The notes under the pieces are model-generated. The model worked only from the letters and a program-made list of their open reading frames with translations. It was not told the DNA's origin and did not search any database. This document shows positions 8,493 to 64,000 of a stretch of 64,000 nucleotides of DNA, in pieces. Numbering within the stretch: the stretch's first letter is position 1; every line of letters begins with the position of its first letter. The DNA comes from a virus: the IMG/VR virus record IMGVR_UViG_3300034284_002648, positions 1 to 64,000 of that record. One strand, given 5' to 3'. A program made the position numbers and the translations under genes.

Positions 8493-8502
8493 GGTAAAAA
8501 CA

Positions 8503-16868: not shown

Positions 16869-16879
16869 GAGAAAAATAG

Positions 16880-25440: not shown

Positions 25441-26071
25441 TACACAAACGCCAACACCAACTCCAACGAACACTCAAACACCCACTAATACTCAAACACC
25501 AACACAAACACTTACTAGTACTCCTACAAATACAAATACTCCTACTACTAGTGAGACCCCAACAAACACACCTACCAATACAAATACTCCTACAATGACG
25601 GAGACACCAACCAACACACCTACACCAACTAATACGGCCACACCAACTATAACAACTACTCAAACACCAACTAATACTAGTACCCCAAGCGAAACACCAA
25701 CTAATACCCCAACACCAACCAACACATCAACAGTAACTCCTACTGCCACAACAACTAGTACCACTACAGTTACTCCTTCTCCAACAGCTATTTATATTTA
25801 TAAAGCGATAAATATGAAAATTAATAGAGTAATTATTGGACATAATTATAAAGTAGAATTGTCTACAGACGATATTGGATTGGCCAAGGTTGAACCATCC
25901 ATAATAACATTTACAGGAACTTATGATCCTCAAAATATAGCATTTAAAATAGGGTTCTCTGCTGCTTTAGCTACCATTATATTAAATGCCAAAGTAACAG
26001 ATTTAGATACAAATATGATAGAATATAATACTGTATTTATTAAATGTAATGAAATACAAGATTGTTATTAA
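24011..26071 (+). CDS. Repeat-domain fibre protein with Thr/Pro linkers
   Basis: A 686-residue protein. Four Cys-bounded repeats (about 2-91, 133-229, 230-319, 380-476) are separated by Thr/Pro linkers (about 92-130, 320-378, 478-592). It ends in an Ig-like domain (about 595-686; IGHNYKVELSTDD, closing VFIKCNEIQDC). The repeat resembles short domains seen in other phage fibres with an LYTD/IYK-type central motif, but no family name can be given. The gene is in the same frame as its upstream neighbour, separated by 18 bases holding three further in-frame stops after the terminating TAA. There is no SD. It may have split off from that neighbour. Confidence 0.55.
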   Translation: MLYNINLSQYNLCHTLTTTTVDIDTTDISVGNYLYKTNNIPFLWTELRAISSLFATSRSFYLNRTNDTTTIQVKEDLTNGYALIVEVNATCPTQTPTPSITASNTPTPTNTPTPTNTRTPTRTPTVTPSPPLNRYLYYVSSNLEDVCYNRSSTVVNPISLFDINSTLEIGSFIYKNSSATSRWLFSELTTRLGVVVSKLYLIQSSTGLVASIISGTGGFAVVDADNIQCPAMQMSDETYLLCHTNSYVNVQISTKSLAISNYIYKNNGIDNWTWTELVALDPSFSGAVKLFLKRNNYIIRIEQDIATDYAVITDTTTICPTQTPTPTRTSTPTISVSPTVSVTPSNSNTPTPSITLSRTPTNTPTPSYSPTPTPTATDPLNGVYYYLSNDSYALCHNNPGKIILVYDNNGILNIGEILYQTSNALDIWMYSELLTLLGLLSSDELYIRRQIGASTTTYKIISNQNGESEVADIQVCVTQTPTPTPTNTQTPTNTQTPTQTLTSTPTNTNTPTTSETPTNTPTNTNTPTMTETPTNTPTPTNTATPTITTTQTPTNTSTPSETPTNTPTPTNTSTVTPTATTTSTTTVTPSPTAIYIYKAINMKINRVIIGHNYKVELSTDDIGLAKVEPSIITFTGTYDPQNIAFKIGFSAALATIILNAKVTDLDTNMIEYNTVFIKCNEIQDCY
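25441..25788 (+). repeat. Thr/Pro-coding linker repeat
   Basis: Longest linker of the 686-residue repeat protein, with [14 protein letters not shown]-like units, between the last Cys-bounded repeat and the Ig-like domain. Confidence 0.85.
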
Positions 26072-26082
26072 AAGGACATTTT

Positions 26083-26307
26083 ATGGCTATTAAAAATATA
26101 TCATTGTCTGATGTTGCAGATAAACTAGTTGTCAGTAGTATGAACATTAACGATAGTTCATTGACGGAAAGAAAAAACAACATCTTTTCAACAGCATCAT
26201 ACTATTTATTCTCAATTAATAAACCAGCTTTTGCTATAGAACTAGCAGAGAACATCAATCCTGTAACTTTCAGTCCGTCTAGAGACTCTCCACCTTTGTC
26301 TACATAA
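26083..26307 (+). CDS. Small unknown protein in the adhesin block
   Basis: A 74-residue protein starting at ATG 26083, which follows AAAAGGA at good spacing. A longer start at 26062 would overlap the previous gene and lacks an SD. The N-terminus (MAIKNISLSDVADKLVV) is mildly amphipathic, and the end is Ser/Pro rich (FSPSRDSPPLST). There are no Cys, no membrane segment and no known motif. It is squeezed between two large fibre genes, with only one base before the next ATG. It could be a small structural or chaperone-like subunit, but no function is claimed. Confidence 0.5.
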   Translation: MAIKNISLSDVADKLVVSSMNINDSSLTERKNNIFSTASYYLFSINKPAFAIELAENINPVTFSPSRDSPPLST

Positions 26308-26308
26308 T

Positions 26309-29029
26309 ATGATCACCAATAATCTTCAAATTTATAGCTGGACATATGGATATTATATCGACAGTATCACTAATAAAAAATTATCTATCGGTGATATTGT
26401 TAGATATAAAAATATCAATAATAATAAAGTATTATTTAATAATACAATAAATGTTGTTTCCAAACCGGCTGGTGGAGGCGAGATAGTAGGAGATATTATT
26501 CAGGATTATAATGGTATATTTGAAGATAATGATATATTAGATGAAAGTAGACAATATATCAAAATACCTTTTGATGAATTAACAAATATTATTGATATAG
26601 AAATCAATGCCGATATTTTTTCTGATATTTATAATGTTGAAGGAAAAGCACAGAGTAGTTTACCAACAGATAAATCCTCATATTTATCTTTATATCTATA
26701 TGATGGTACCGAAATAAAAATAAGTATTACCGATTTTATTTATTCTGATACTAATAAAATTACAGTTAATTTACCGTCTACTATATATTATGTTAAAGAA
26801 ATTAGATTCTATGGACCAAGACCACAGAAAAAACAAGCAATAGGATCTTCTATAGAACCCAATATCAATATTTCTGCTGAATATCACCAGTCTCAAGATG
26901 GTATTATTAGGAATTGGGGTTATGAGCCAGAACTCTATAACATAGATACCACCACCTTTAGATTAACAGATCCATCACTTAATGGTAGAAATAACTTAAT
27001 TTTTAAAGAAAATATTTTAACTAATTTTCAAAATTATACTAGATCAAGATATAATCCACTAAATATTTCTTCTAATAACTCACTAATAAATATCGATACA
27101 AATAGTAGTCTGACAGTATCCAAGTCTGCTCAAACATATGGTGCTCTATTTGGATATTTAGAATTAATATCTACAGATAGTACTAATACCTCTAATATAT
27201 TTTTAAAAAATGTTACATTTAATTCTCCTGCATATTTTTACAATATCAATGAAAACCTCATACCTCCAAAAGATCCCACTATTGTTGATGGAGGATTATA
27301 TCTAGTTAATCCTCAAGATAAAACACAAAAACAAAGAGTTGTACATTTATTTTCTCGAAATTGGAATTCATATTTGGATTCTCTTGACGATAACTGGGTG
27401 AATGATGCTATTGTACTAGCCAATAATTTAAATAGATCCTCTGTTATATCTCCATATTTTAATTTGGATGATTTTGAATTTTTAGATACATATGAAGCAA
27501 CTCCTGTGAGATTAACACATCTTAATATAACAGTGGATACTGAAAAACCAACACCTACGCCGACGCAAACACCAGATAGTACGTTAACTCCTACTCCCAC
27601 ACCAACACAAACCATAACACCATCCGTTTCAGCGCCTCCTATTAAATCTGGATACGTTTATGTTTGGGGAACAAATGGCTATAATGATGAACAAATAATT
27701 AATCCTGTTCAAATAGACCAAGATAACAACTTCGTTGGTATCAATTTATCATTCACCAACATATTCACAGGCTTAAACCACCTGATCGCATCAAGACAAG
27801 ACAAGATATTATTCCCAATTAAAGACAATCGTTCTTCTCAGCTAGGTCTTCCTTTTTCAGATAATATTAAACAATTAAATAAACTTAATACTGTAATAAG
27901 TACTATTAATAGTAGATGGAAAAATGTATCCATAGGTGATGACTTCACATATCTGCTCAATAATGACAATGAAGTTTATAGATGGGGATCAAACCGTTTT
28001 GGTCAATTAGACTCCACATACAATCAATTACCTCTACCAACTCAACTTATACTAGATAATACATTTTATTTCTTAGACGTATCTTGTGCCAAAACACACG
28101 CTTTTGTTATAGATAATTTTGGTTCTTTGTATGTTTGCGGAAGTATAGATGGGTATAGTTTTAGTAAGTTTACCAAATATAATAATGAAAACTGGATTAA
28201 GATTTTTACTAACGAAACCCATACCTTTGGAATCAAGCCTAATGACACAGCACTATATGTACTCAGAGGAAAAGTAGCATCAGATGTATTATCATTTAAT
28301 CATACTCCACAAATTATAGATCATAATATAGAAAATTATAGGAGTATAGATGCTGGAGATAGTCATTTATTAGTTATTAAACAAGACGGATCTTTATGGG
28401 TTTTTGGAAATAATGATTATGGTCAATTAGGTACAGGAGATAATGATTCTGTATATGATAGATTAATAACAAAAGATACTTATCAAAATTGGGTTAAAGT
28501 AGCCGCTGGAAGCAGACATTCGTTGGCAATAAACACTATTGGGGTATTATATGGTTGGGGATCTGGACAAGATTACCAGTTTGGTTTTGTTCAAAACGAC
28601 TTTAATATACCAACATTAATTTGGGGAGGTAATTGGATAGATATATCGGCTAAGGGTAATTTAAATGGAGCTATAGCTGGGGATTATATATTCCAAGAGT
28701 TAACCACTCAAACCCCAACACCCACTCCTACTAATACCTCAACTCCGACTATCACACCAAGTATTAGTGATACGCCACCTCCAACACCTCCACCACCATC
28801 ACAATCGGCAACAACAACAAGAACTCCAACACCAACAGCAACACCAACAAGAACCAGTACTCAAACTCCAACCCCAACTCCAACACAACCGATATTCCTA
28901 TTCAAGATTATAGATGTTTTACCAGTTACACCACCACCAACACCGTCACAAACACCACCACCGGTATCACCCAGCGCATCTCCGCCTGTGGAAGTGTATG
29001 ATTTTACAGCACTATCATTTATAGTATAG
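26309..29029 (+). CDS. RCC1 propeller fibre protein
   Basis: A 906-residue protein. Residues about 1-410 are an unassigned, Asn/Ile-rich, probably beta-structured region. A short Thr/Pro linker (about 412-443) leads to an RCC1 propeller (about 448-798). Recognisable blades include NNDNEVYRWGSNRFGQLDS, QDGSLWVFGNNDYGQLGTGD and LAINTIGVLYGWGSGQDYQF. Two more Thr/Pro stretches follow (about 802-861 and 872-896), the last very Pro-rich (VTPPPTPSQTPPPVSPS). No clear SD precedes the ATG, and translation may depend on coupling to the small upstream gene. Likely another receptor-binding head with a C-terminal stalk. Confidence 0.65.
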   Translation: MITNNLQIYSWTYGYYIDSITNKKLSIGDIVRYKNINNNKVLFNNTINVVSKPAGGGEIVGDIIQDYNGIFEDNDILDESRQYIKIPFDELTNIIDIEINADIFSDIYNVEGKAQSSLPTDKSSYLSLYLYDGTEIKISITDFIYSDTNKITVNLPSTIYYVKEIRFYGPRPQKKQAIGSSIEPNINISAEYHQSQDGIIRNWGYEPELYNIDTTTFRLTDPSLNGRNNLIFKENILTNFQNYTRSRYNPLNISSNNSLINIDTNSSLTVSKSAQTYGALFGYLELISTDSTNTSNIFLKNVTFNSPAYFYNINENLIPPKDPTIVDGGLYLVNPQDKTQKQRVVHLFSRNWNSYLDSLDDNWVNDAIVLANNLNRSSVISPYFNLDDFEFLDTYEATPVRLTHLNITVDTEKPTPTPTQTPDSTLTPTPTPTQTITPSVSAPPIKSGYVYVWGTNGYNDEQIINPVQIDQDNNFVGINLSFTNIFTGLNHLIASRQDKILFPIKDNRSSQLGLPFSDNIKQLNKLNTVISTINSRWKNVSIGDDFTYLLNNDNEVYRWGSNRFGQLDSTYNQLPLPTQLILDNTFYFLDVSCAKTHAFVIDNFGSLYVCGSIDGYSFSKFTKYNNENWIKIFTNETHTFGIKPNDTALYVLRGKVASDVLSFNHTPQIIDHNIENYRSIDAGDSHLLVIKQDGSLWVFGNNDYGQLGTGDNDSVYDRLITKDTYQNWVKVAAGSRHSLAINTIGVLYGWGSGQDYQFGFVQNDFNIPTLIWGGNWIDISAKGNLNGAIAGDYIFQELTTQTPTPTPTNTSTPTITPSISDTPPPTPPPPSQSATTTRTPTPTATPTRTSTQTPTPTPTQPIFLFKIIDVLPVTPPPTPSQTPPPVSPSASPPVEVYDFTALSFIV

Positions 29030-52121: not shown

Positions 52122-52835
52122 TCATGGTTTCCAATTTTCTGAATATCCCAAAAGACTTTCTGGAATATCAGAAATGTTTTGTTGATGTTTAGATAACTCT
52201 CTTATAATAGAGACAGCATCATCATGCATCAAGCTCTTAACATTATTTTCATTGAATCCAAGTTTATTAATTAGTGATAATGTATTAATATTTAAGCGTT
52301 TTGACATAACGTCTATAAAGTTAATTTGATTATTACTGATTTTACTAACACTATCACCAGTAGGATCATCTTCAAGATTTGTGGCCAATTCTTCCGCAGC
52401 CACTACTTTTCTTAGCTTTAGAGCCCTTCTTAATGCTCTACCTTCAGCCCTAGTTTCTGCAACGGCAACCGGATGATTTCGATAAGTTTTATCGCAATTA
52501 CCCCAATAAACGTCTGCCGCCCCGCTTACTGTACGACAACGGTTTAAATCATCGGTCTCGACACCCTTATCATTTAAAACGTAGCTTATGGTGTGTACCA
52601 CGGTGGCTCTTTTTTCATTTGAAGGCTCAGGATTCTGTACCACATCGCTGGTAGACTGGATAACAGAACAATTCAGAGCAATCTCAAAAATTCGCCTAAG
52701 TCCATCGGTTGTTGGATTGCCATCAATCTTTTCATCATCAGATAATAGACCTAGAACATAATCATTCCATTCTAAGTCATTTGGCCCAATTTTCTTCGTT
52801 TCAGTAGATTCTACAACTTTCTCTTTTTTGACCAT
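52122..52835 (-). CDS. Putative single-strand annealing protein (Rad52-like)
   Basis: A 237-residue protein. The core (about 35-150) has GLRRIFEIAL, an ATVVHTISYVLND strand, a SGAADVYWGNCD turn and the helix-rich HPVAVAETRAEGRALRRALK followed by LRKVVAAEEL. Such E-x-R-A-x-x-R-x-L-R-x-A segments are found in phage Rad52-like and related annealing proteins. The C-terminal about 75 residues look like a helical domain (QINFIDVMSKRLNINTLSLI). SD TAGGAG overlaps the end of the upstream endonuclease gene, one base away. With ssb and the zinc ribbon it would form a recombination module. An alternative is an unrelated DNA-binding protein. Confidence 0.45.
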   Translation of the reverse strand: MVKKEKVVESTETKKIGPNDLEWNDYVLGLLSDDEKIDGNPTTDGLRRIFEIALNCSVIQSTSDVVQNPEPSNEKRATVVHTISYVLNDKGVETDDLNRCRTVSGAADVYWGNCDKTYRNHPVAVAETRAEGRALRRALKLRKVVAAEELATNLEDDPTGDSVSKISNNQINFIDVMSKRLNINTLSLINKLGFNENNVKSLMHDDAVSIIRELSKHQQNISDIPESLLGYSENWKP

Positions 52836-52836
52836 T

Positions 52837-53640
52837 TTAGTCTCCTAGTTCTATAATCCTATTATTATTTGATGATTTATTATTTAGTTGATCAAGAGCA
52901 GATCGTAAATCTTGATATATTAAACTTGCTCTAGATTCAGAAAAATCCTTAGTTTGTTTTATCCTTATCAAGCTCCAACCCTTACCCAATATCAAGCCGG
53001 TTTTTTTGTTGTCGTATTTTTGATTTCTTTGTAAAGATTCATCGCCCCAAACAGGCTCGAAATGAGATGGGCCGTCAACTTCTATTGCCGTATTCATTGT
53101 AGGGAGGAAAATGTCTATTTGCAACTTGGTATTTACAAGAACTTGTTCTTTGTGAAATTCAGCTTTGTATCCATCTGATATGAGTGCCTTAAAGAGAAAT
53201 TTCTCTAATTTAGAACCTGTTTTACTAGCATCTCTAACTGCTTGGTTTGCTTTTTTTAGAATGTTATCTTTTGTATTATCGTCTAAAGATTCCCACGCTA
53301 ATCTAGCCTTTTCTTTTCTTTCTTTTATTTCTTTATCAGATAATGAGTCCCAAGATTTTAGAACACCCATACCTATCTTTTGTTTGGTGTCCTCGTCTCG
53401 TTCTTTGCCCTTTGTCGGATGCTTATGCTTACCAGTAGACAAAGCATTTTTTTGAGCCTCAGACTTAGTACGAATATCTATATTGAGCCTTTTGGCATCT
53501 CTCCTTATTTTGTTGGCATATGTGCCATAAATAGCAGCAATATCAGCAAAGCTTTTATTTTGATTAAGATAAAGATCTTTTAATATTTTTTCTTTGTCAC
53601 TATCACTAAGTAGTGAATATGATGTTTTTGAAGTTTTCAT
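52837..53640 (-). CDS. Vsr/EDxHD-type endonuclease, probably homing
   Basis: A 267-residue protein. The N-terminus (about 10-60) looks like a helix-turn-helix (ILKDLYLNQNKSFADIAAIY). A basic, NUMOD-like middle covers about 60-140 (KHKHPTKGKERDEDTKQKIG). The C-terminal about 125 residues carry a PD-(D/E)xK-like core: LQIDIFLP, then AIEVDGPSHFEPVW (about 185-199), then GLILGKGWSLIRIKQ. This matches the Vsr-related endonuclease family described as free-standing homing enzymes in phage metagenomes. Its start overlaps the previous gene by 35 bases. Cleavage specificity cannot be read from sequence. A host-degrading or recombination nuclease is an alternative. Confidence 0.65.
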   Translation of the reverse strand: MKTSKTSYSLLSDSDKEKILKDLYLNQNKSFADIAAIYGTYANKIRRDAKRLNIDIRTKSEAQKNALSTGKHKHPTKGKERDEDTKQKIGMGVLKSWDSLSDKEIKERKEKARLAWESLDDNTKDNILKKANQAVRDASKTGSKLEKFLFKALISDGYKAEFHKEQVLVNTKLQIDIFLPTMNTAIEVDGPSHFEPVWGDESLQRNQKYDNKKTGLILGKGWSLIRIKQTKDFSESRASLIYQDLRSALDQLNNKSSNNNRIIELGD

Positions 53641-54079
53641 ATGATAATACTTCCATAACTCCTATTGGTTTTTTGTTCCAGCATCTCTGATATATGTTGT
53701 AAATATTATAGTTTTGTGCAATAACTGAAATTTTTTCATTTTCCGCATAGATATTTCTTAAATCAAAATGATTAACCTGGGCATAATTCATCCATTCTGG
53801 GTGTTGTAGAAAATAATATATCTGGTCTATCCCTGGAAAATTTTTAACTATATCTATAACCTCTAGATCAAAGACAAATAATCTACCTTGCCAAAACTTA
53901 GCTTCCGATAGTGGCAATATAGGCATATTTAATTTATTAGTATTGATACTATTATTATATGTAAAACATAGATATTGATTAACAGGATCATTCTGTATTA
54001 ATTCTAGAAATAAATTATGAAGATTATTGTATATATGATTGTTTGATACTATGAAGCCAATATCTTTATTAATTGCCAT
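53606..54079 (-). CDS. Unknown protein ending the glycosyltransferase-like chain
   Basis: A 157-residue protein from ATG 54079 (MAINKDIGFIVSNNHIY), chosen because a weak AAGAAAG lies upstream and the overlap with the preceding gene is then only 11 bases. A start at 54103 would add eight residues. Alternating hydrophobic strands (IGFIVS, LFVFDLEVIDIV) and a Trp-rich helix region (YFLQHPEWMNYAQVNHFDL) suggest an alpha/beta fold like parts of GT-B enzymes. No catalytic motif is visible. It is the last gene of the overlapping chain, so a role in the same sugar pathway is inferred from position only. Confidence 0.5.
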   Translation of the reverse strand: MAINKDIGFIVSNNHIYNNLHNLFLELIQNDPVNQYLCFTYNNSINTNKLNMPILPLSEAKFWQGRLFVFDLEVIDIVKNFPGIDQIYYFLQHPEWMNYAQVNHFDLRNIYAENEKISVIAQNYNIYNIYQRCWNKKPIGVMEVLSYENFKNIIFTT

Positions 54080-54698
54080 AAAATTCTTTCTTAATATATT
54101 CATTTATATCTGTGATATTTTGATCATGATGAACACTAGTTACTTCTCCAGAGTCCATATCAATATATGACGCACCACATAATAGACTCTCGTTTTTATA
54201 TATATTATTTTTCCCAACAATATATTTATATGAAGAGAAGATAAATGCCTTTTGATGCTCTAGCAATGTTCCGAGATTCATAGGGTGTTTTATATTGGGA
54301 TTATTAAACATATGAACTACTCTTGTATCACATAATTTTAGAATATTCTCTGGTAATTCATTGATATTATCAAGTAATATAGCGATATCATTACTTTTTT
54401 CCATAGAGTATTTTCTGAAAATTTCAGTATTTACCACATGAAATAAACTATCATTATCTATGATAAAAATGGATTTTTCTTTATCTGTAGCAGCAGTATA
54501 GAATGCTTTGACTTCCATGCTATTAAAATCATGTTCGCTTACACAAATACGATACGGCTGGATAATATCGTAAGCTTTAAAAATTTCTTTCATATCTATA
54601 ACATAGACATCAACATTATTCTTATGGTGATACATTGCTATTTTAAGATTATCAAGAAGTCTGCTATTGCTTTTGGATACAATAATCTTATTATTCAT
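54069..54698 (-). CDS. Unknown alpha/beta protein of the glycosyltransferase-like chain
   Basis: A 209-residue protein. The first 40 residues (NNKIIVSKSNSRLLDNLKIA, VDVYVIDM) and later segments (KSIFIIDND, DIAILLDNINELP, TRVVHMFNNPNIKHP) form the strand-helix rhythm of a Rossmann-like protein. FSSYKYIVGKNNIYKNESLL near 155 recalls the C-terminal half of glycosyltransferases. The start overlaps the previous stop as ATGA, so expression is coupled. It has no E-x7-E or DxD motif that could assign an enzyme class. Its function is not recognised. Confidence 0.5.
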   Translation of the reverse strand: MNNKIIVSKSNSRLLDNLKIAMYHHKNNVDVYVIDMKEIFKAYDIIQPYRICVSEHDFNSMEVKAFYTAATDKEKSIFIIDNDSLFHVVNTEIFRKYSMEKSNDIAILLDNINELPENILKLCDTRVVHMFNNPNIKHPMNLGTLLEHQKAFIFSSYKYIVGKNNIYKNESLLCGASYIDMDSGEVTSVHHDQNITDINEYIKKEFYGN

Positions 54699-55378
54699 AT
54701 AAAAATTTTAGCCTTATTAATGTCTTTGATATGATTTATTTTTGTTATCTGTGTTTTGGGAATCATTACCTTGTCAAAACTAACAGATCTTTCCAAAAGC
54801 TTGTTAACTAATTCAAAGAAAAATAGTGTTTTTAGTTCGTGGGGCAATAACATATCTTTTACAATAGACATTGTTTCATTGTTAAGGTAGATGCACTCAG
54901 ACCACAAAACAGGCAGATCATAAAACAAATACTCTATAGAGTTCTGATCGGCACAACCTATATTAAAGTTGTTTTTTTTACCCTTAATCAAGAAAATGGA
55001 ATTATTTGATTTATTAAAGTTTTTAGCAAAATTAAATTTTGTTATAATACCATTATTAATAAAGATAGCTCCATTATTATTTTCTTTTTGTCTGATATAG
55101 GATACAACCGAAGTCATCTGACCACTAGTGTCGTATTGTTTATTTTCGAGTATTGATATGTTTTTAGGAGAAATTATTTTTGATGTTAGAATAGTTTTTT
55201 TAATTCTATCAGACTCAAAACCCGTGAGTAAATAGATGTGATTATTTTTATAAACTGACCTAAGAATAGAAATCTGATGTTCTATCAGGGTTTTGCCCCT
55301 GATTGTTATTAGTGCTTTTGGGCCAAAAGATTTCATACCTTTGGTTATTTCAGGTATAATCATTACTATATCAGTCAT
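54695..55378 (-). CDS. Sugar nucleotidyltransferase-like protein (degenerate)
   Basis: A 227-residue protein. The N-terminus follows the NTP-transferase fold: a hydrophobic strand (DIVMIIPE), then GMKSFGPKALITIRGKTLIE, then an EHQISILRS helix and the strand IYLLTGF. In active sugar-phosphate nucleotidyltransferases the first loop is Gly-rich (GxGxR) and contacts the nucleotide. Here it reads TKGMKS, so activity may be altered. Later strands (NNGAIFINNGI, NSIFLIKG) fit the same fold. Overlaps flank it on both sides (8 bases upstream, 4 downstream). A role in making an activated sugar for the neighbouring transferases is plausible. Confidence 0.55.
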   Translation of the reverse strand: MTDIVMIIPEITKGMKSFGPKALITIRGKTLIEHQISILRSVYKNNHIYLLTGFESDRIKKTILTSKIISPKNISILENKQYDTSGQMTSVVSYIRQKENNNGAIFINNGIITKFNFAKNFNKSNNSIFLIKGKKNNFNIGCADQNSIEYLFYDLPVLWSECIYLNNETMSIVKDMLLPHELKTLFFFELVNKLLERSVSFDKVMIPKTQITKINHIKDINKAKIFI

Positions 55379-56102
55379 TATATAACACTAATTTGCACCC
55401 CGGATTATCTATAAAAAATGTATCTGTATCATAAAAAAACTTAGCTTTGTCACCACCAAGAATATTGTATGTGTCGTATGTCATAAATAGACCATCTAGA
55501 GCAGAGGTACTTTTCATATAAACGCCATAACTATGGTTGATCACAGATTCTGTATGAATTGTGTTCATAATATCGTCTAAGCTATTAAAAGAATCCTCTG
55601 TGGCTATATATAAGAATGAATTAGATTCATGCTTATTAACGACAACATCTACCCCAGAAATAATAGATATTACTTCATCTATGTGTGGCAGTATTTTATT
55701 AACTTTCCATGGAACTTTTATTTGTTGCTCAAAACTATGAACTGTCAAACCATCTACATTTTTACCAAAACATATTATATTTTTTGGATAAAAACTAGAT
55801 TTATTAACTTTATCTATAATATATGATATTGATTGATTGATTGTATCAAAATTTATAACTAGCGTATAATAAATTTTATTCTTAGCAAATATATAGTCTA
55901 TAATTTCTTGTTTATTGACTTTATCTTTATAAGTTTCTAATGTATTTTTGCCAAAAGCATATGAGCAACTGTAATTGCAGATGGTTTTGTTCTCGGAATC
56001 TACCAATATTTCAGGGTTATTTATTGCGTCCGGTATATCAAAAAAACACCACTTATCTTCTGAATTAAATATACATTTTTTACAATCGGTTGTATTATTC
56101 AT
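55371..56102 (-). CDS. Glycosyltransferase-like protein with N-terminal Cys cluster
   Basis: A 243-residue protein. The N-terminus has a Cys cluster (DCKKCIF, WCFFD, TICNYSCSYAFG) that may bind a metal. Similar N-terminal clusters precede GT2-like domains in some large phages. Then come strands of an alpha/beta domain: YYTLVINFDTINQSISYIID and FYPKNIICFGKN, resembling the first two strands of a GT-A fold, with IISGVDVVVNKHES and NSFLYIATEDSF further on. No clear DxD was found. Its ATG shares one base with the previous stop. GT2-like assignment is tentative and the enzyme may be inactive. Confidence 0.45.
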   Translation of the reverse strand: MNNTTDCKKCIFNSEDKWCFFDIPDAINNPEILVDSENKTICNYSCSYAFGKNTLETYKDKVNKQEIIDYIFAKNKIYYTLVINFDTINQSISYIIDKVNKSSFYPKNIICFGKNVDGLTVHSFEQQIKVPWKVNKILPHIDEVISIISGVDVVVNKHESNSFLYIATEDSFNSLDDIMNTIHTESVINHSYGVYMKSTSALDGLFMTYDTYNILGGDKAKFFYDTDTFFIDNPGCKLVLYND

Positions 56103-56485
56103 CAGTAGTTAATTTTCTTTAGTGTTAATGCTATTTTAAAATTTTCTTCTATCATCTTATATAGAACTATCTTTGGTTCTAGAGACACAATAAAATTAAT
56201 AATAGTCATAGGTTCAGTATAAAATTCTATAGTTTGTAGGAGCTTTAGGCCAGTTTCAACATCTATAGTATCTTTACATAGCGCATCAATAATCTTAGAA
56301 TAATCTATAATTTTAACTACTAGCTCACCATCTTGTCTTAATTTTTCTAGTAATAAATTGATTGTCGGTATTTTTTTATCTTTCTCTATACAATCAATAT
56401 CTTCAAGAACTATAGCTAATTGAGAAAAATCAGCAATATTGTTTAATGTATTAATGTTGTTTTTATTAATAGATAATAGATTCAT
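56102..56485 (-). CDS. Small methyltransferase-like fragment
   Basis: A 127-residue protein. The strand QLAIVLEDIDCI followed by LLEKLRQDGELVVKIIDYSK resembles the C-terminal half of class I SAM methyltransferases, where an LxxGG-type turn precedes a strand. The SAM-binding Gly-rich motif of such enzymes is absent, and the protein is roughly half normal length. Phages carry many such short versions. It lies in the overlapping chain (4-base ATGA overlap with its upstream gene). It may be a partner subunit or a remnant. The evidence is weak. Confidence 0.4.
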   Translation of the reverse strand: MNLLSINKNNINTLNNIADFSQLAIVLEDIDCIEKDKKIPTINLLLEKLRQDGELVVKIIDYSKIIDALCKDTIDVETGLKLLQTIEFYTEPMTIINFIVSLEPKIVLYKMIEENFKIALTLKKINY

Positions 56486-57222
56486 AATTTAATTACCTTA
56501 GATAGTATTTTAGAGAATGTGGCAAAGTCATAATTTATTTTGGTATTATTTGCATGACTAATGTTGGAGGGTACGATTCTTTGATTTTTTAGAATATCAA
56601 TGGATGATATTGTTGAGCAACCAGCCGATAAAGCGACGATATTATCAATATAATTTTTGTATACAACAAGATTATAGTCAGCTAGACTGTTGATTAAACT
56701 ATAATAGTCTTTATGAGATGAAAAGTCAATCACATCTATATTAGTCTGTTTAAGTATGTGAGCTATATCTTTATAATTATTATTGTCAATAATTAATACT
56801 CTATCTCTTTTTGCAGATGGGTTTGATATTTTAATTTTAGGCAGAGCTATGTTTATATTTGTGTCAAATAAATCATTGTTTGATTCGATAAGATTGATTA
56901 TTGTAAATTTTTGTAGCCTATTTTTGATAAGAAAAATATCTTCTTTTTTCATGTAAGAAATGTCTGAATGTATAAATACAACTTTATCGTGCTCGCCAGA
57001 CATGTAATAATTTTGATATGAATCAGACATAATATATGATTGATAGTTATTAATTAATACCGATTTTAGAGTAAGGTATTCAGACACATCTGAATTATTT
57101 ATTCTGATAATTTTTTCTCCAAAAGCATGGTCTATTAATAGATCAAAAGATGAACCATTATTAATATAATGTATTAAAGAATTATTATTTTTACAATAGA
57201 GTTTATTATATAGCTTATTCAT
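56482..57222 (-). CDS. Unknown alpha/beta protein of the glycosyltransferase-like chain
   Basis: A 246-residue protein. It shows a two-half organisation. A first half contains KVVFIHSDISYMKKEDIFLI, and a second half begins with a strand typical of Rossmann folds (KRDRVLIIDNNNYKDIAHIL), then NIDVIDFSSH and YNLVVYKNYIDNIVALSAGC. The second half, with its CSTISS turn, loosely recalls the nucleotide-binding half of GT-B glycosyltransferases, but the usual E-x7-E is missing. ATGA overlaps link it to both neighbours. No function is claimed beyond membership of the chain. Confidence 0.45.
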   Translation of the reverse strand: MNKLYNKLYCKNNNSLIHYINNGSSFDLLIDHAFGEKIIRINNSDVSEYLTLKSVLINNYQSYIMSDSYQNYYMSGEHDKVVFIHSDISYMKKEDIFLIKNRLQKFTIINLIESNNDLFDTNINIALPKIKISNPSAKRDRVLIIDNNNYKDIAHILKQTNIDVIDFSSHKDYYSLINSLADYNLVVYKNYIDNIVALSAGCSTISSIDILKNQRIVPSNISHANNTKINYDFATFSKILSKVIKL

Positions 57223-58112
57223 ACAATGATCTTAGATATGCCTGTGGATTTATCATTTGAGTAAATTTGATTCATAGATTTGTTTTCAATAGGAAATACA
57301 TTTTTAAGTTTTTGATAGAGGTCGTGATCATCAAACTTATGGAAAAAATTGCAGCCACTATCAAACTTAAATAGTTTATTATGATAAGAAACTGTTTCTA
57401 TCTCATATCTCTTGTCTAAATTGTATTTTCCTATAATTCTTTTTCTTAGACTTAAAGCATAATAATATTCTAGATCAGATACAAAAACCGTGTTCATTTG
57501 CAACAAACAGTCAATTGTATTAATAATAGACATTCTAATATTATCATCGATAGTATCGTTAATGGATAGTATAATTTTAGATGATGACGGATCTATGTTC
57601 AATTGTCTATTAATATCCTCAATATATGAGAGTGTTTGATTTGTATCTTCGGATTCTATACCTAATAATAAAATAATATTATTTTGATGTTTGCTAGATT
57701 CATAAAAAACAGATATTAAATCCTTCAAGATACCTATGTCTTGTTTAAAATTTAAAATACATCCATACTTATAAAATTTATTAAATGCATTACTAATTTT
57801 TAAAGAGTCATTATTTGGCTTAAGATACATATTAAGTTTTATGCACTCTATGCCGTTGTTGTCTAATATATCTTTATGAAAATCATTTGATACACAAACA
57901 TGTGACACTAATTTGTATGATATTGGAAAATATAAATTTGTAACGCATGGAATATTAGGTATTAAAATATTTTGTTTATATTCTCTAGCTACAAAAATCT
58001 TGTTATAGTATGAAAATTGTAGAACGGTTTGTTGCGAAGGTTTTGCTTCTTCAACCAACTTGTCTGAAAAATAAGAAAACTTATCTCTAATGAGTAACAG
58101 ATTGCTATTCAT
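57219..58112 (-). CDS. Degenerate GT-B-like protein
   Basis: A 297-residue protein. Segments YKLVSHVCVSNDFHKDIL (like the mid-domain of GT4 enzymes) and NNIILLLGIESEDTN with SSKIILSINDTIDDNIRMSI (like the strand-helix units of the C-terminal GT4 domain) suggest a shortened GT-B enzyme. The diagnostic acidic E-x7-E motif is replaced by CLLQMNTVFVSDLEYYYALS, where two separated acidic residues remain. The start overlaps the GT4 gene stop as ATGA. It could be a pseudo-enzyme that partners the full-length GT4. Confidence 0.45.
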   Translation of the reverse strand: MNSNLLLIRDKFSYFSDKLVEEAKPSQQTVLQFSYYNKIFVAREYKQNILIPNIPCVTNLYFPISYKLVSHVCVSNDFHKDILDNNGIECIKLNMYLKPNNDSLKISNAFNKFYKYGCILNFKQDIGILKDLISVFYESSKHQNNIILLLGIESEDTNQTLSYIEDINRQLNIDPSSSKIILSINDTIDDNIRMSIINTIDCLLQMNTVFVSDLEYYYALSLRKRIIGKYNLDKRYEIETVSYHNKLFKFDSGCNFFHKFDDHDLYQKLKNVFPIENKSMNQIYSNDKSTGISKIIV

Positions 58113-59797
58113 GCGTGTGATTCTTTTATATGTGCGTATTCTATGAAATCTTCATTAATCTTATTGTTATTTTTTATAAAGCTTACAATAGTATTATTAT
58201 TACGAATAATTGTATTAAAATATTCAATTGCATCTTTCCATGAGTATGGAACAACTTTCTGATTATCGTTTTGATAACCCTGCGTCAGCTTTTGTAGTAT
58301 ATTTAATATAAAGTATGAGTCTATCGTATGGGTGCCATTTAAATAATTTGTACAGATATGTTGTAGCTTGGCTAGGTCAGGATCTTTTGAGCTATTGATA
58401 AGTTCTAGAGATAGAGGAGAATGTATTTTCCAGTCCTTTATTTGTTCATATTTATTGATAGGATCTTGTTGTTTTTGTTCAAAAAGCTTAGTGAGTCTAT
58501 TTTCCCATTTCAATATAATATTTTCCCAATTAAAATGTTTAATACATAATTCTCTGGTTTTTATTCTCTGTTGGAACTTCATCGGGTTGGGTATGTGGAT
58601 ATAGTCATAAAGTATATTAACTAAACTGTCATTATCTGGATAAGCTCTATATGCTTCTGTTTCCAGCTCTTTAAACATTGTTGCAATATTAACCGGATAT
58701 GCATTGAGCTTGGATACTATATCCTCCATAGCACTATATGGAATCGTTACTATCGGAACACCACAAGCAGCAGCTTCAACTTGAGGCATACCAAATCCTT
58801 CACATATAGAATATTGGATATAAAGATCGAAAGCGTTGTATATACCAACTAACTGCTCCTGTGTTACTCCAGCAGTAACAGAAGGAAAAGTAGCATGATT
58901 ATTACAATATATGCAATTTCTTGTTGAGCCGCTATAGACATCAGCAAAAACCTTATTGCAATTTTTGCACGTATATGTCAATAGTACCTTATTTAATAAT
59001 CTATTCTCTTTCAATAAAGACGGTATATTCCAGCCCAAATAGTCTGGATAACCAGTATGTAAATACAAGAATACCTTGTTTGCAAAAGGAGACTGTTCTT
59101 TTTCAAGTCTATCAACCAGTAATCTAAACGATTTAATTAATTCTGGTATTAATTTTCTTTTTTGATTTCTCATTACAGAGCCAAGAACAATACTGTCTGT
59201 AGGTATTGATAGTGATGCCTTGGAGGCATTAGTGTCGAGCATTGTATATTTTTGAGTATCTATACCCGGAGAAGCTGTATCTACATAGTTGATTGTATTA
59301 TTTGTTTGTTGTAACAAAATATCTCTAGCCCAATCAGAGTATGTAAAAATAGAATCAGCACCAGAATAAGTATCAAGCCACATCTCTTGTTGAGGATATG
59401 AATCCACAGTTGGCATAAGCATCCAATGATAACATTTCCTCATAGGAGAGAATGCTTGATAGGAATTCATCCAATAATCTCTGATATCAATAACTACATC
59501 TGGCTGAAAATCTAAAAGAGTTTTTTCAAATCTCCATCTACCAAATGCATTTTCTGCATTAGCAGAGTATTCTTGAAATCTACTATCGTTGCTTTTAACA
59601 GCATTAGCATAGTATCTCCAGGATATGTCTTTATCTCTAGGATCATTGACAAAACCATAGCAAGCCAATTCTGCCACATGAAATAGTGGATTTGAATGTA
59701 GTCTACTTAATAGTTCTTTTCCGTATACAGAATATCCGGTACTTAAAAAACTAGCTTCATTACATAACAAAATTTTCAGCCGCTGTTTTGTATTCAT
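58109..59797 (-). CDS. GT4 glycosyltransferase with zinc-ribbon insertion
   Basis: A 562-residue protein and the clearest enzyme of the chain. The N-terminal GT-B domain begins ILLCNEASFLSTGYSVYGKE, with a TGYSxYG loop of the kind that contacts the acceptor or donor. The middle has SIFTYSDWARDILLQ. The C-terminal domain contains the GT4 signature CEGFGMPQVEAAACGVPIVT, with the E-x7-E pair at about 331-339. A zinc ribbon (TCKNCNKVF and NCIYCNNH, about 276-302) is inserted just before it, and a helical C-terminal extension covers about 440-562. Donor and acceptor are unknown. There is no SD, and the gene starts about 20 bases past the ssb terminator. Confidence 0.8.
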   Translation of the reverse strand: MNTKQRLKILLCNEASFLSTGYSVYGKELLSRLHSNPLFHVAELACYGFVNDPRDKDISWRYYANAVKSNDSRFQEYSANAENAFGRWRFEKTLLDFQPDVVIDIRDYWMNSYQAFSPMRKCYHWMLMPTVDSYPQQEMWLDTYSGADSIFTYSDWARDILLQQTNNTINYVDTASPGIDTQKYTMLDTNASKASLSIPTDSIVLGSVMRNQKRKLIPELIKSFRLLVDRLEKEQSPFANKVFLYLHTGYPDYLGWNIPSLLKENRLLNKVLLTYTCKNCNKVFADVYSGSTRNCIYCNNHATFPSVTAGVTQEQLVGIYNAFDLYIQYSICEGFGMPQVEAAACGVPIVTIPYSAMEDIVSKLNAYPVNIATMFKELETEAYRAYPDNDSLVNILYDYIHIPNPMKFQQRIKTRELCIKHFNWENIILKWENRLTKLFEQKQQDPINKYEQIKDWKIHSPLSLELINSSKDPDLAKLQHICTNYLNGTHTIDSYFILNILQKLTQGYQNDNQKVVPYSWKDAIEYFNTIIRNNNTIVSFIKNNNKINEDFIEYAHIKESHA

Positions 59798-59816
59798 TAT
59801 TTGTTGATATATATAT

Positions 59817-59846
59817 GAAAAAGGGCTATGTTATTAGCATAGCCCT
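59817..59846 (-). terminator. Intrinsic terminator after ssb
   Basis: A perfect 9-bp stem (AGGGCTATG at 59822-59830 against CATAGCCCT at 59838-59846) with a 7-base loop. On the minus strand it is followed by a run of T. It lies 26 bases past the ssb stop and before the glycosyltransferase chain, so it should end or attenuate the ssb transcript. Confidence 0.8.
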
Positions 59847-59872
59847 CTTTCAAACACACTATTCCTAGTTTA

Positions 59873-60247
59873 TTAGAAAGCTACCGATTCTTCTTCCTTT
59901 GACTCGCTCTTCTTTGAAGACAGCTTAGTAATCTTAGAGAAATTATTTACGCGAATCTTTAGAGATGAATGCTTAACACCATCCTTTTCCCAAGAATCAT
60001 TTCTAATAGAACCTTCTACTAGAACTAGATCGCCCTTCTTAAAGGACTTGCCGATAATCTCCGCTCCAGTATCCCATGCTTCGCAAGGAATAAAAGACGT
60101 AATCTTATCCTTTGATCCATTTGCCTTGGTATATTCTCTAGAAGTCGCAACAGTAAAGTTAACAACTGAAGTTTCCTTACCATTACTGCTGATCGACCTT
60201 AGTTCCGGATCTCTTGCTAAATTTCCACGAATAATAACAATATTCAT
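59873..60247 (-). CDS. ssb: Single-stranded DNA-binding protein
   Basis: A 124-residue OB-fold protein of the bacterial Ssb family. Signatures are MNIVIIRGNLARDPELR at the start, VVNFTVATSREYTK, then FIPCEAWDTGAEIIGKSFKK and GDLVLVEGSIRNDSWEKDG. The C-terminal tail is short and acidic, ending EEESVAF, like the EcoSSB tip that recruits partner proteins. It is shorter than host Ssb (about 175 residues) because the flexible linker is nearly absent. The ATG has SD AAGGAG. The gene has its own promoter and terminator, consistent with high expression during replication and recombination. Confidence 0.92.
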   Translation of the reverse strand: MNIVIIRGNLARDPELRSISSNGKETSVVNFTVATSREYTKANGSKDKITSFIPCEAWDTGAEIIGKSFKKGDLVLVEGSIRNDSWEKDGVKHSSLKIRVNNFSKITKLSSKKSESKEEESVAF

Positions 60248-60293: not shown

Positions 60294-60321
60294 ATTATAC
60301 AAATGGCTGACACCGAGTCAA
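60294..60321 (-). promoter_or_regulatory. Sigma70-like promoter for ssb
   Basis: On the minus strand TTGACT (60321-60316) and TATAAT (60299-60294) are separated by 16 bases and lie about 47 bases upstream of the ssb ATG. The -35 box contains the stop codon of the upstream polymerase gene. It has the best consensus match among the intergenic gaps examined. Confidence 0.65.
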
Positions 60322-61934
60322 GCCATAGGTACATAACATTTTTCTACGATCAAGTCGCTTTTCTTGAAGGACTTGGCTCCTTTAAAAATCAGAATGTTTC
60401 CATCAAATAGCTGATTTCTGTATAACGATAGCTGTTCTGTAAAAAATATAACAGAGTCTATATAGCCGGTGCTATCGGTTATACTAACAAATGCCATTTC
60501 ATTACCCTTATTTTTCCCATTCTTAATCTTAATCACATTAACATTATCAATTTCACCAGCGACAATAATATTTTTTCTGTCGGAATCTTTGAACTCTTTA
60601 CATGTTGTATTAGTCATACTTATATCGTATGAATCTACTTTTGAATAGGTTAGATTTATTCCGAGCAGGTTGCTTTCATTATCACAGACCCACTCTATTT
60701 TGTCATCCAAAGAAAATGGAGGCTTGATAAGAGAAGAAATTAAACCTTGTAATATATTTTTACGATTTTGAGTTAGTTTTGGTTTCTTGACCAAAATATT
60801 CATTAGCTGTAAAGTATTGAACTGAGAGACATCAATTGATCTTAAATATTCTATCTCTTTGCTTGTTAGCTCACTCATAATCTCGTATTCAAAAAGCATA
60901 GAGGTTCTAGTTTTAGTAATATAACTGAATGCCCCACTACATATCAAAGCTTTTGCAGCGGTAGAATTGATATTTACTAATAGATTAAGCAGTATTTCTG
61001 ACCATGTAAGATGCTGTATGTCTAAATTTTTAGATAGATCCACAATCTTTTTATAAACCGAGTCGCCCACACCCTTTATGTCTGTAAGACCAAAGTGTAT
61101 TTTGTTGTTATGGATTACAAAAAATTGATTCAACAATCTATAATCTGGTACACAGATTTCTATATCCATATCTGTGGCATTTTTCACCAACTCTTTGATT
61201 TCTTGCTGGGGGTCTATTTTATCTTTTGCATATTTGAGATACGAAGCAAAGAAAATCTTAGGGAAGTGTGCTTTACTATATGCTGATAAATATGCGTTAA
61301 TAGCATAGCTTACGGCGTGAGATTTATTAAATGAGTATCGTTGAGATTTTTCAATCCAACTAAAAATTTGTTCAGCTTCATTTTCTGATGCTAAATTAGT
61401 TTTTTTGCACCCCTCTATAAATATCTTCTTAAGTTTTGCCATCTCTTCTGGTTTTTTCTTACCAATAGCTTTTCTTAACTGATCAGCTTCTTGAAGATCA
61501 AAACCAGCAATTTTCTGAGCTATTTCCATAGCCTGTTCTTGATATACCATCTCTCCGAAGGTGGTCTTAAGAATTGGCTCTAGGGCTGGATTAAAATAGT
61601 CTATAGATTCTTGGCCATTCTTTTTATCTATAAAGTGATTACTAACAGTTTTACCATCTCTAATAGCTTCCAAACATCCCGGTCTCATAATACTAATAAG
61701 AGCAGAAAGTTCTTCTATATTTGAGGGTTTGAGTTTTCTGGCCATGCTTTGCCCTAGGCGTGATTCTAGCTGAAAACATCCTTTGGTATTGCCAGAAGAC
61801 AACATTTCCCAAGTTCTACTGCATTCAAAATTTATGGCATCCATATTAATTGAAAAATCAATTTTTGGCATACCATCAGTGGATTTGTCGATAATAGGGA
61901 ATCGACAACCACAATCAAATGTATAATATTCCAT
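60318..61934 (-). CDS. dnaE: DNA polymerase III alpha, C-terminal part (split DnaE)
   Basis: A 538-residue protein. It starts with an unusual head (YTFDCGCRFPIID) and then matches DnaE from the fingers onward: GNTKGCFQLESRLGQSMARK, ISIMRPG, FGEMVYQEQAMEIAQKIAGF, ADQLRKAIGKK and SQRYSFNKSHAVSYAINAYL. Later parts are a helix-hairpin-helix (GLTDIKGVGDSVYKKIVDLS) and an OB fold (IIVAGEIDNVNVIKIK, SVIFFTEQ). The PHP and palm parts are encoded separately at the right edge. The start lies three bases after the exonuclease stop. No intein motifs are visible at the break, so the two chains probably associate without splicing. Confidence 0.88.
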   Translation of the reverse strand: MEYYTFDCGCRFPIIDKSTDGMPKIDFSINMDAINFECSRTWEMLSSGNTKGCFQLESRLGQSMARKLKPSNIEELSALISIMRPGCLEAIRDGKTVSNHFIDKKNGQESIDYFNPALEPILKTTFGEMVYQEQAMEIAQKIAGFDLQEADQLRKAIGKKKPEEMAKLKKIFIEGCKKTNLASENEAEQIFSWIEKSQRYSFNKSHAVSYAINAYLSAYSKAHFPKIFFASYLKYAKDKIDPQQEIKELVKNATDMDIEICVPDYRLLNQFFVIHNNKIHFGLTDIKGVGDSVYKKIVDLSKNLDIQHLTWSEILLNLLVNINSTAAKALICSGAFSYITKTRTSMLFEYEIMSELTSKEIEYLRSIDVSQFNTLQLMNILVKKPKLTQNRKNILQGLISSLIKPPFSLDDKIEWVCDNESNLLGINLTYSKVDSYDISMTNTTCKEFKDSDRKNIIVAGEIDNVNVIKIKNGKNKGNEMAFVSITDSTGYIDSVIFFTEQLSLYRNQLFDGNILIFKGAKSFKKSDLIVEKCYVPMA

Positions 61935-61937
61935 ACT

Positions 61938-62639
61938 TTATATGTTTGCTATATTAAAAGAATTCCTAAATTTTACTTTGGATGCTAATTTCCTATGCAG
62001 TTTCAAAAATCGAATTAGAATTTCAGCAGTGTCTTTTACATCTTTCAAAGCATCATGAGCACCCTCTTTACTAATACCAAGATAATCTCTTACATCATCT
62101 AGAGTATAGCTTTTAAGTTCTTTAGATCCTTCAAACCAATAAAATATAAGATTCATGATATCTATAACATCTCTTGGATAAAAAAGAGAAGAATTCCCTT
62201 CTTTATTCAAGTTTTTATATTTAGTGCTTAGATTTTGAACAATCTTTAAGTCAAACCTATTGATATTGTAGCCCGCTGCTATCGGTGCAGTAAAGCAGGA
62301 TTTTCTTTCTGAACGAATATGATACATCTCTAAATAAGATGTAAACATCTTCCATCCCGCCTCCTGTTTTGGAAAAGATTTCCAAGAATTAAGAATATCA
62401 TCTTTGGATGATCCTCTAACCTTAGCATGAAAATCTAAAACATCAGAATCCTCATACGCATAGCTACTATTTTTTTCCAGAGCATCTGGTCTTAGATTGA
62501 TATTAAATTCGGAATCTGGTATGATTTCTAATTTAAATGGATCTACGATAATAGCAGCTATTTGTACAGGACTACAAACATTCGGATCCTTGCCATCTGT
62601 CTCAAGGTCGAAGACACAAATTTTTTGATTATTAGCCAT
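61938..62639 (-). CDS. dnaQ: DnaQ-like 3'-5' proofreading exonuclease
   Basis: A 233-residue DEDDh exonuclease. Motif I is CVFDLETDGKDP (Asp and Glu metal ligands, residues about 10-12). Motif II is AAGYNINRFDLKIV (about 115-128). Motif III is GAHDALKDVKDTAEIL (about 192-207, with the His and Asp). This is the normal set for the epsilon subunit of DNA polymerase III and related proofreading enzymes. It lies between the two halves of DnaE, overlaps the 61-residue gene by 8 bases and is followed after three bases by the C-terminal polymerase gene. That arrangement implies cotranslation and a joint role. Confidence 0.9.
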   Translation of the reverse strand: MANNQKICVFDLETDGKDPNVCSPVQIAAIIVDPFKLEIIPDSEFNINLRPDALEKNSSYAYEDSDVLDFHAKVRGSSKDDILNSWKSFPKQEAGWKMFTSYLEMYHIRSERKSCFTAPIAAGYNINRFDLKIVQNLSTKYKNLNKEGNSSLFYPRDVIDIMNLIFYWFEGSKELKSYTLDDVRDYLGISKEGAHDALKDVKDTAEILIRFLKLHRKLASKVKFRNSFNIANI

Positions 62640-62817
62640 TAATTACCACTGCTGTTCCTGGTGCGAAAAAAGTCTTATTGCCTGTGTTAGCCGTATCCTC
62701 TGCATTATAAGATTTGCAGCAACTAACCTTAATTAACTCTATCTTTCTGTATGTGGTGTCTGATCCTGGTACTTTAAACTCTTGACCAACACCTAGTTCA
62801 GAAAATAGTTTGTTCAT
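62632..62817 (-). CDS. Small protein between polymerase and exonuclease
   Basis: A 61-residue protein starting at ATG 62817. This is preferred over an upstream in-frame ATG because a strong GGAGG lies five bases before it. It begins MNKLFSELGVGQEFKVPGSD, has YRKIELIKVSCCKSYNAED in the middle and ends FFAPGTAVVING. Small beta-rich proteins with this outline (K-I strand, Cys and Asn-Ala, then F-x-P-x-T-x-V) are common in phages and have no known role. Overlaps at both ends place it in the replication operon. It might regulate or bridge the split polymerase. Confidence 0.6.
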   Translation of the reverse strand: MNKLFSELGVGQEFKVPGSDTTYRKIELIKVSCCKSYNAEDTANTGNKTFFAPGTAVVING

Positions 62818-64000
62818 AACTACCTCCATTTTTCAATAGTGTGCTTACTGTCATTACTTTATCTAACATTGCTACGCCCAAAATATCGAATTTGATTATA
62901 CCCAATGTTTCCAAATCTTGCATTTCCATGCCAGCTATTTGTTGTTTATTTTTAGTATCATAGACCATAGGACAAATACTCCCTAGTCTTTGATCCGATA
63001 TAACAATACCAGCAGCATGTTTGGACTGATTCACTTTTGTCCCTTCTAGCCTAATGGCTTGTTCAAACCTTTTTGCTAGAGGGCCAGACAGAGAGCCATC
63101 CTCATTAATATAACACCAATTCTTCAGTTTGTCAACATTATTTTCTAAGGCCCACTGGATTATCGACGCTTCTCCGTATTCCTCTTTCATTTCTTGAAGT
63201 TCGTCAGCTATTTTGGCTTCGTCTGGTATATTTTTTGTAATTGAATTCATTTCGTCAAAACTTATATCGCCATACACTCGGAGAACATCTTTTAGAGCAC
63301 CCCTACCCTTAAGAGTATTGAAAGTGATCATTTGCGAAACATTTTCAACACCATATCTATTCTTAATGTAGTTGATAACATCCTCTCTCTTATTAATAGG
63401 GACGTCAACATCAATATCTGGCATCGAAATTCTATCTTTAGTATTTCTACCAGCATTATAAAATCTTTCAAAGATCAGATTATATTTTAATGGATCAATA
63501 CTGGTTATACCTATGAGATATGAAACCAGACATCCTGCTGCCGAACCACGACCGGGACCGGGTAACCACCCCTTATTCCTCACAAAATTCACTATATCGG
63601 ACACTATTAAAAAGTAGCTAGACAGACCAGCACCCTGTAAAACAGAGAGTTCGTATTTGATTCTATCTGTGTATTCGCCTTGCTTATCCTTATCTATAAC
63701 ATTGGCGATTTTATCCCTCCAGCCGTTTCTACATAGTTGTCTAAGAAATTCATCTGGATCATTACCTTCGCATTCAAATGGAGGCAACATTGGTCTATGA
63801 GATATATCATAATCTTCACACATACTATCTACTAGATTAGTATTCTCTATCTCTTCTGAGGTATGAATAGACGACATTTCTTCTGGAGACAATATATAAT
63901 AATTATCTGAAATGAAAAATGTAGACATTGGAACAGATTCATGGTTGACTATTTTCCTGTTAATGTCTGTAAATGTTGTCTTTAGATTATTGCATAATAA
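62798..64000 (-). CDS. dnaE: DNA polymerase III alpha, N-terminal part, 5' end outside window
   Basis: The frame is open to the right edge, so the ATG at 63928 is probably internal. About 400 residues are visible. They include the end of the PHP region (YYILSPEEM) and the palm: GWLPGPGRGSAAGCLVSYLI, the catalytic MPDIDVDVPINKR (two Asp), VSQMITFNTLKGRGALKDV, KHAAGIVISD and the third catalytic Asp in IIKFDILGVAMLDKV. It stops 15 residues later with GGSYEQTIF, before the fingers. In E. coli DnaE these parts are one chain. The partner is the gene at 60318-61934. Most of the PHP domain lies outside the window, so its metal ligands cannot be judged. Confidence 0.9.
   Translation of the reverse strand, partial: LLCNNLKTTFTDINRKIVNHESVPMSTFFISDNYYILSPEEMSSIHTSEEIENTNLVDSMCEDYDISHRPMLPPFECEGNDPDEFLRQLCRNGWRDKIANVIDKDKQGEYTDRIKYELSVLQGAGLSSYFLIVSDIVNFVRNKGWLPGPGRGSAAGCLVSYLIGITSIDPLKYNLIFERFYNAGRNTKDRISMPDIDVDVPINKREDVINYIKNRYGVENVSQMITFNTLKGRGALKDVLRVYGDISFDEMNSITKNIPDEAKIADELQEMKEEYGEASIIQWALENNVDKLKNWCYINEDGSLSGPLAKRFEQAIRLEGTKVNQSKHAAGIVISDQRLGSICPMVYDTKNKQQIAGMEMQDLETLGIIKFDILGVAMLDKVMTVSTLLKNGGSYEQTIF
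62823..62827 (-). promoter_or_regulatory. Strong Shine-Dalgarno that fixes the start of the 61-residue gene
   Basis: GGAGG on the minus strand, five bases before ATG 62817 and inside the final codons of the upstream polymerase part. It makes ATG 62829 unlikely as the start. Confidence 0.75.

Follow-up and report, generated by a model that had tools for sequence, protein, structure and literature searches.

A DNA polymerase III alpha subunit encoded in two chains around an exonuclease gene in a clade of uncultured phages

Gene content of the polymerase locus

The subject of this work is the replicase region of the IMG/VR virus record IMGVR_UViG_3300034284_002648, in which the DNA polymerase III (Pol III) alpha subunit, DnaE, is encoded by two separate open reading frames (ORFs). 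The analyzed stretch, hereafter the window, comprises the first 64,000 bases of this 80,257-base record. Pol III alpha is usually one large chain. Here, its N-terminal part (DnaE-N) and C-terminal part (DnaE-C) flank genes for a small protein and a DEDDh exonuclease, and the following features were distinguished:

62798..64000, minus strand: DnaE-N, 629 amino acids (aa), PHP and palm domains with all three catalytic Asp residues (Pfam DNA_pol3_alpha, PF07733, 1.1e-74)
62632..62817, minus strand: small protein of 61 aa, predicted five-stranded barrel with an invariant Cys-Cys pair (ORF and structural model)
61938..62639, minus strand: DEDDh 3'-5' exonuclease, DnaQ-like, 233 aa (motifs and profile; Pfam RNase_T, 3.7e-11)
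60318..61934, minus strand: DnaE-C, 538 aa, fingers, HhH and OB fold, with an N-terminal CxC hairpin (model and profiles; Pfam DNA_pol3_finger, 5.4e-49, HHH_6, and a sub-threshold OB-fold match)
59873..60247, minus strand: single-strand DNA-binding protein (SSB), the conserved next gene of the unit (profile)

Within the minus-strand replication operon, these genes are preceded by genes for helicase-like and primase-like proteins, a deoxynucleoside monophosphate kinase (phrog_139), and a Cas4/RecB-like exonuclease (phrog_69), in this order (the helicase and primase labels come from sequence reading, the remaining names from profile matches). The DnaE-N gene ends with a stop codon at 62798 of the window and starts at position 64687 of the contig (locus L107), its 5' part lying outside the window. 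The small gene starts at 62817, within the 3' end of the DnaE-N gene and with GGAGG ahead of its start, the exonuclease start (62639) overlaps the small-gene stop, and only 3 nt separate the exonuclease stop from the DnaE-C start (61934). These ORF coordinates agree with a preliminary description of the locus, made from the sequence alone, which had placed both genes between the halves with overlapping or near-touching starts. The four genes that it named as a unit were confirmed, but the unit is larger, as the SSB gene directly follows.

Position of the cut and structure of the second chain

As stated in the preliminary description, DnaE is cut just after the third catalytic Asp: the alignment places the end of DnaE-N 28 residues past this residue (D601 of 629), within a length-variable linker. 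With respect to Escherichia coli DnaE, DnaE-N aligns to residue ~562-575 and DnaE-C from ~576-584. The break falls ahead of the fingers, past the helix that comes after the third catalytic Asp, in a linker whose length varies also among one-chain polymerases, and DnaE-C starts ~9-28 residues ahead of the conserved fingers sequence (only about nine in several relatives, e.g., that of locus L040). The domain set of C-family polymerases (PHP, palm, fingers, HhH, and also OB) is present, with the fingers and C-terminal parts in the separate ORF, as had been proposed; the window and its split relatives thus encode two chains instead of a single DnaE polypeptide, and these would have to assemble to act as a DnaE.

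The structure of DnaE-C was modeled as a single chain from an alignment of 49 family members (mean predicted local distance difference test score, pLDDT, 93; predicted template modeling score 0.86). Against solved structures of Pol III alpha, the model gave matches of 522-543 columns, and the second chain is confidently predicted to adopt, on its own, the fold of the C-terminal half of this subunit. Its N-terminal CxC segment, present in 29 of the 49 members, was modeled as a hairpin.

Absence of inteins and introns at the cut

Two polymerase halves may be rejoined by a split intein, as in the fractured polB gene of phage MIJ3, and split inteins do occur in the family studied here. A genuine one lies in the palm of loci L031 (4053-7142), L036, and L190 (3817-6108), with the junctions GPGRG^CFLPDSRVLTP... 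and ...EGIAVHN^SAAG (site GPGRG^S); DnaE is in three pieces in these loci because the palm too is cut, and in L031 a 264-aa endonuclease-like ORF separates the intein halves. Moreover, full cis inteins with an HNH-like insert are present in the fingers of L078 and L080 (both around 8001-9000) and L205 (5957-8572), inserted after RPG or RPGPLE, near the RPGxLE motif. As these inteins at other DnaE sites are recognizable, they serve as positive controls for the absence of intein blocks at the cut, at both ends of which none was found in the window and ~100 related loci, in line with the preliminary description. DnaE-N carries no Cys-block, ending at most a few tens of residues past the third Asp, and the short segment ahead of the conserved fingers leaves no room for a C-intein and has no HN. 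Split-intein halves were not detected at the break; this explanation is refuted at the sequence level, and we assign it virtually no probability.

It is also extremely improbable that the ORFs are joined at the RNA level, by a self-splicing intron or translational bypass. Introns are common in phage polymerase genes, and an HNH ORF splits DnaE inside the fingers in Bacillus phage KLEB27-3. However, the Rfam covariance models gave no match to an intron family in the stretch, the DNA between the halves is packed with genes that overlap, are under selection, and change from one subclade to another, and the ends of the two chains vary in both length and sequence.

Distribution among related viruses

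The tblastn searches with the parts against ~90 viral loci revealed the order palm, small protein, exonuclease, fingers, and SSB throughout, and a second, distant scan that started from L129 added 80 loci, cut nearly always at the same place. After dropping identical copies, the IMG/VR relatives with the same cut numbered 130, with the exonuclease gene between the halves in 126 of them. The break point and gene order reported for the window thus recur in phage genomes as a clade-wide trait, and the earlier view that this is not random breakage was upheld. Sequencing error or a pseudogene was ruled out by the 126 loci together with the low ratios of nonsynonymous to synonymous substitution rates (dN/dS) given below.

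Continuous DnaE was found in 11 loci of the sample, all at ~30% identity, and in none of the surveyed loci within the split clade. In two of the 11 (L130 and L193) palm and fingers form one ORF and the cut lies between PHP, encoded by a separate gene, and palm; the space between the two genes is occupied by a DEDDh exonuclease and an 80-aa ORF in L130 (3331-7557), and by a phosphoesterase-like ORF and others in L193 (3327-8800). Among 50,697 records, no cultured representative of the main clade was found, since the best of the listed matches to the fingers of three clade members reached only ~24-33% identity.

Phylogenetic analysis

Phylogenetic trees of 82 and of 35 sequences recovered the main split clade as monophyletic, on one side of a branch (FastTree support 0.999; Shimodaira-Hasegawa-like approximate likelihood ratio test 98), and placed it among one-chain phage and bacterial DnaE. 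Such a placement favors the split state as derived, not ancestral. The DnaE of Rossellomorea phage phiT1 and of contig L207 is cut in the same linker and placed elsewhere in the tree. Forcing these sequences into the main clade was only marginally rejected (approximately unbiased (AU) test, p 0.047 for phiT1 and 0.025 for L207), so that repeated splitting at the palm-fingers linker is likely, but not proven. Besides KLEB27-3, L130, and L193, Lactococcus phage AM8 has its DnaE cut elsewhere, at a point further along the gene.

Selection, catalytic residues, and other polymerases

A two-part gene might be a decayed, non-functional DnaE of a phage that uses the host polymerase. In comparisons with four relatives at ~75-90% protein identity, the ratio of nonsynonymous to synonymous polymorphism (pN/pS) was ~0.1-0.2 for DnaE-N, DnaE-C, and the exonuclease, and dN/dS, where computable, was 0.02-0.09, these ratios being rough as the synonymous sites are near saturation. 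Both DnaE halves are under strong purifying selection. The catalytic Asp triad is present in 63 of 63 split and 16 of 16 intact sequences, and the PHP metal ligands are retained in most members, with His replacing Cys at one site.

The polymerase genes were surveyed in 13 records of 80-233 kb, which may be incomplete; the control genomes gave the expected matches. No PolA, PolB (PF00136), or beta-clamp domain 3 was detected in these records, and the split DnaE was their sole A-, B-, or C-family polymerase detected. DnaE-N and DnaE-C are single-copy in 11 of the 13; in L205 they are interrupted by an insert, and the 206-kb record of L209 holds two copies of each part, one of the C copies being only a 315-aa open frame. 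The missing phage clamp suggests that some host replication parts may be used, which would suit a decayed polymerase. Decay is highly unlikely, given that both halves have very low dN/dS values, invariant catalytic residues, and conservation across a very diverse clade.

Exonuclease, small protein, and other genes between the halves

The exonuclease keeps all DEDDh motifs (DxE, D, and HxxxxD). It has no long C-terminal tail like that of epsilon, which binds the PHP domain of alpha, and ends with a short conserved KF[KR]xSF sequence.

The 61-aa protein was modeled (pLDDT 95.7) as a small barrel of five strands, and its pair of Cys residues is invariant. In nine records its gene is present in one copy, confined to the polymerase operon; in L070 and L071 it is missing from the usual place, with no copy elsewhere in these records. 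A sequence search against cultured phages gave no match, and because its fold resembles nothing more specific than the generic small barrels of phages and, weakly, those of the EF-P/eIF5A type, no function is claimed, although the protein may play a structural role at the cut.

Other genes also occur between the halves. In the deep-branching L129 (3069-7530), RNase HII, coiled-coil, and Zn-ribbon proteins replace the exonuclease, and uracil-DNA glycosylase (L135, L138, and L196), HNH (L188, L204, L206, and L026), D12 methylase (L207), GroES-like chaperonin (L200), and glycosyltransferase (L143 and L205) genes were identified in others. This varied content fits the possibility that the polymerase has two chains and the intervening genes are passengers at an insertion-tolerant break, the exonuclease being there through co-expression or history and not as a subunit. 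Such a scenario appears rather unlikely, as the exonuclease is near-constant (126 of 130 loci) over divergences from ~40% to complete identity, remains next to DnaE-C where DnaE-N is ~5 kb distant (L145 and L166), and lies between the pieces also in L130, a distant relative cut elsewhere. At the other extreme, we tentatively consider an obligately multi-chain replicase in which DnaE-N, DnaE-C, and the exonuclease, perhaps together with the barrel protein at the cut, make up a single stable enzyme, the exonuclease being both structural bridge and proofreader, maintained clade-wide without reversion; this too is possible rather than probable.

Between DnaE-N and the small gene, L026 and L028 carry a 227-aa HNH-like/HTH ORF, which suggests that the spacer between the halves is still targeted by mobile genes. 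In L076 (4722-7313) an 863-aa RCC1-like ORF lies inside the polymerase operon, and a stretch of it resembles the small protein (LGDIF..CCPVNA).

Neighboring features of the window

Downstream of the polymerase genes, direct sequence reading revealed one further feature, located between SSB and a glycosyltransferase operon:

59811..59857, minus strand: terminator-like hairpin GGGCTATG..CATAGCCC followed by a T run

This hairpin gave a sub-threshold Rfam match, put down to chance, and was absent from the list of a simple scan; a simple promoter scan gave a result at chance level. The minus-strand gene run at 52122-59797 is headed by a GT4-type glycosyltransferase, and in L129 and L130, too, the polymerase genes are followed by a similar one. 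Positions 11562-29029 encode very large proteins of the structural region that contain RCC1-like repeats.

Comparison with known polymerases

The polymerase of the window shares with bacterial DnaE (E. coli, with ~27-30% identity, Thermus aquaticus, and Mycobacterium tuberculosis DnaE1) the order of PHP, palm, fingers, HhH, and OB and the Asp triad, and most clade members keep the PHP metal ligands of M. tuberculosis DnaE1, except for the one Cys-to-His change. Bacterial DnaE is, however, one chain, whereas the clade of the window has two chains, lacks the C-terminal tau-binding domain, and has no canonical internal clamp motif that could be recognized.

A minimal split Pol III alpha is known from group 2.2 jumbo phages, in which two proteins are thought to reconstitute the enzyme (Iyer et al. 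2021, PMC7824862). Similarly to the present case, no intein was reported, but those proteins lack PHP, are encoded by distant genes, are cut between the NTP-binding and catalytic parts, and occur beside a family B polymerase (PMC7824862). In contrast, the clade of the window has the full domain set in one operon, the cut after the palm, and no PolB found. A piece from phage PAC2, probably of the jumbo-phage kind, ends at E. coli residue ~392.

The cultured phage phiT1 (PV767480, 9714-12996, gp20/gp19/gp18) has the same palm-fingers linker cut with a small ORF between the parts (573, 49, and 469 aa), which the record labels simply as two alpha subunits. Its 49-aa ORF is of other sequence and no exonuclease lies between; as this DnaE groups with intact Bacillus-phage DnaE, its split is probably independent, the AU test being marginal. 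The fractured genes of MIJ3 PolB (PMC6892783) and cyanobacterial DnaE also divide a polymerase between two ORFs, which in MIJ3 are separated by a gene, but their halves bear intein ends and are ligated. In PB1-like Pseudomonas phages (Pbunavirus), the Pol III alpha gene is in one operon with an epsilon-type exonuclease gene of the phage (L127); there, alpha is intact and the overlapping epsilon gene lies upstream rather than inside.

PF07733 was reported in about half of PGC_A phages, with no split mentioned in the available part of that source (Weinheimer and Aylward, PMC9123017). No paper describing the present arrangement was found in a search that excluded subscription papers and bioRxiv. 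Split phage polymerases were already known; new here are the cut site, the domain content, the gene linkage, and the lack of a detected PolB.

A probable two-chain replicase and its significance

The cut, its position and conservation, purifying selection, intact catalytic residues, and the lack of an intein, a known intron, or a recognizable A- or B-family polymerase are directly supported by the data. Very probably, then, the locus encodes an intein-free, two-chain C-family replicase with a co-expressed exonuclease. The nearly constant exonuclease gene between halves that no intein rejoins suggests a replicase assembled from parts, and the co-assembly proposed in the preliminary description is a well-motivated hypothesis. 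The palm-fingers interface is large in one-chain Pol III alpha structures. DnaE-N and DnaE-C, both translated from a single operon whose gene starts overlap or touch, would most likely join non-covalently through this interface; the DEDDh exonuclease of the same transcript would be the likely proofreading subunit of the split polymerase, and SSB from the following gene would coat the template. The PHP domain may act as a further, metal-dependent nuclease, by analogy with M. tuberculosis DnaE1, which is reported to use PHP for proofreading (PMC5636811).

Several observations weigh against this reading. Four loci with the same cut (L129, L143, L205, and L207) have no exonuclease between the halves, members of the subclade around L188-L206 have lost the PHP metal ligands, no conserved QxxLF-like internal beta-clamp motif was found at the position aligned to E. 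coli residues 920-924, and no sliding clamp was found in the 13 large records. All clade records are uncultured and possibly incomplete, and since unrelated genes also sit between the halves, adjacency alone is no proof of a physical complex.

A stable, intein-free cut that occurs in nature next to the active site would mean that the palm and the fingers are able to evolve as two distinct proteins. It would provide naturally occurring components for work on reconstitution and proofreading, with phiT1 as a ready experimental system, and it makes the question of ancestral versus derived split replicases testable. In this large, mostly uncultured phage group, the replicase is liable to be missed or mis-scored by annotation pipelines.
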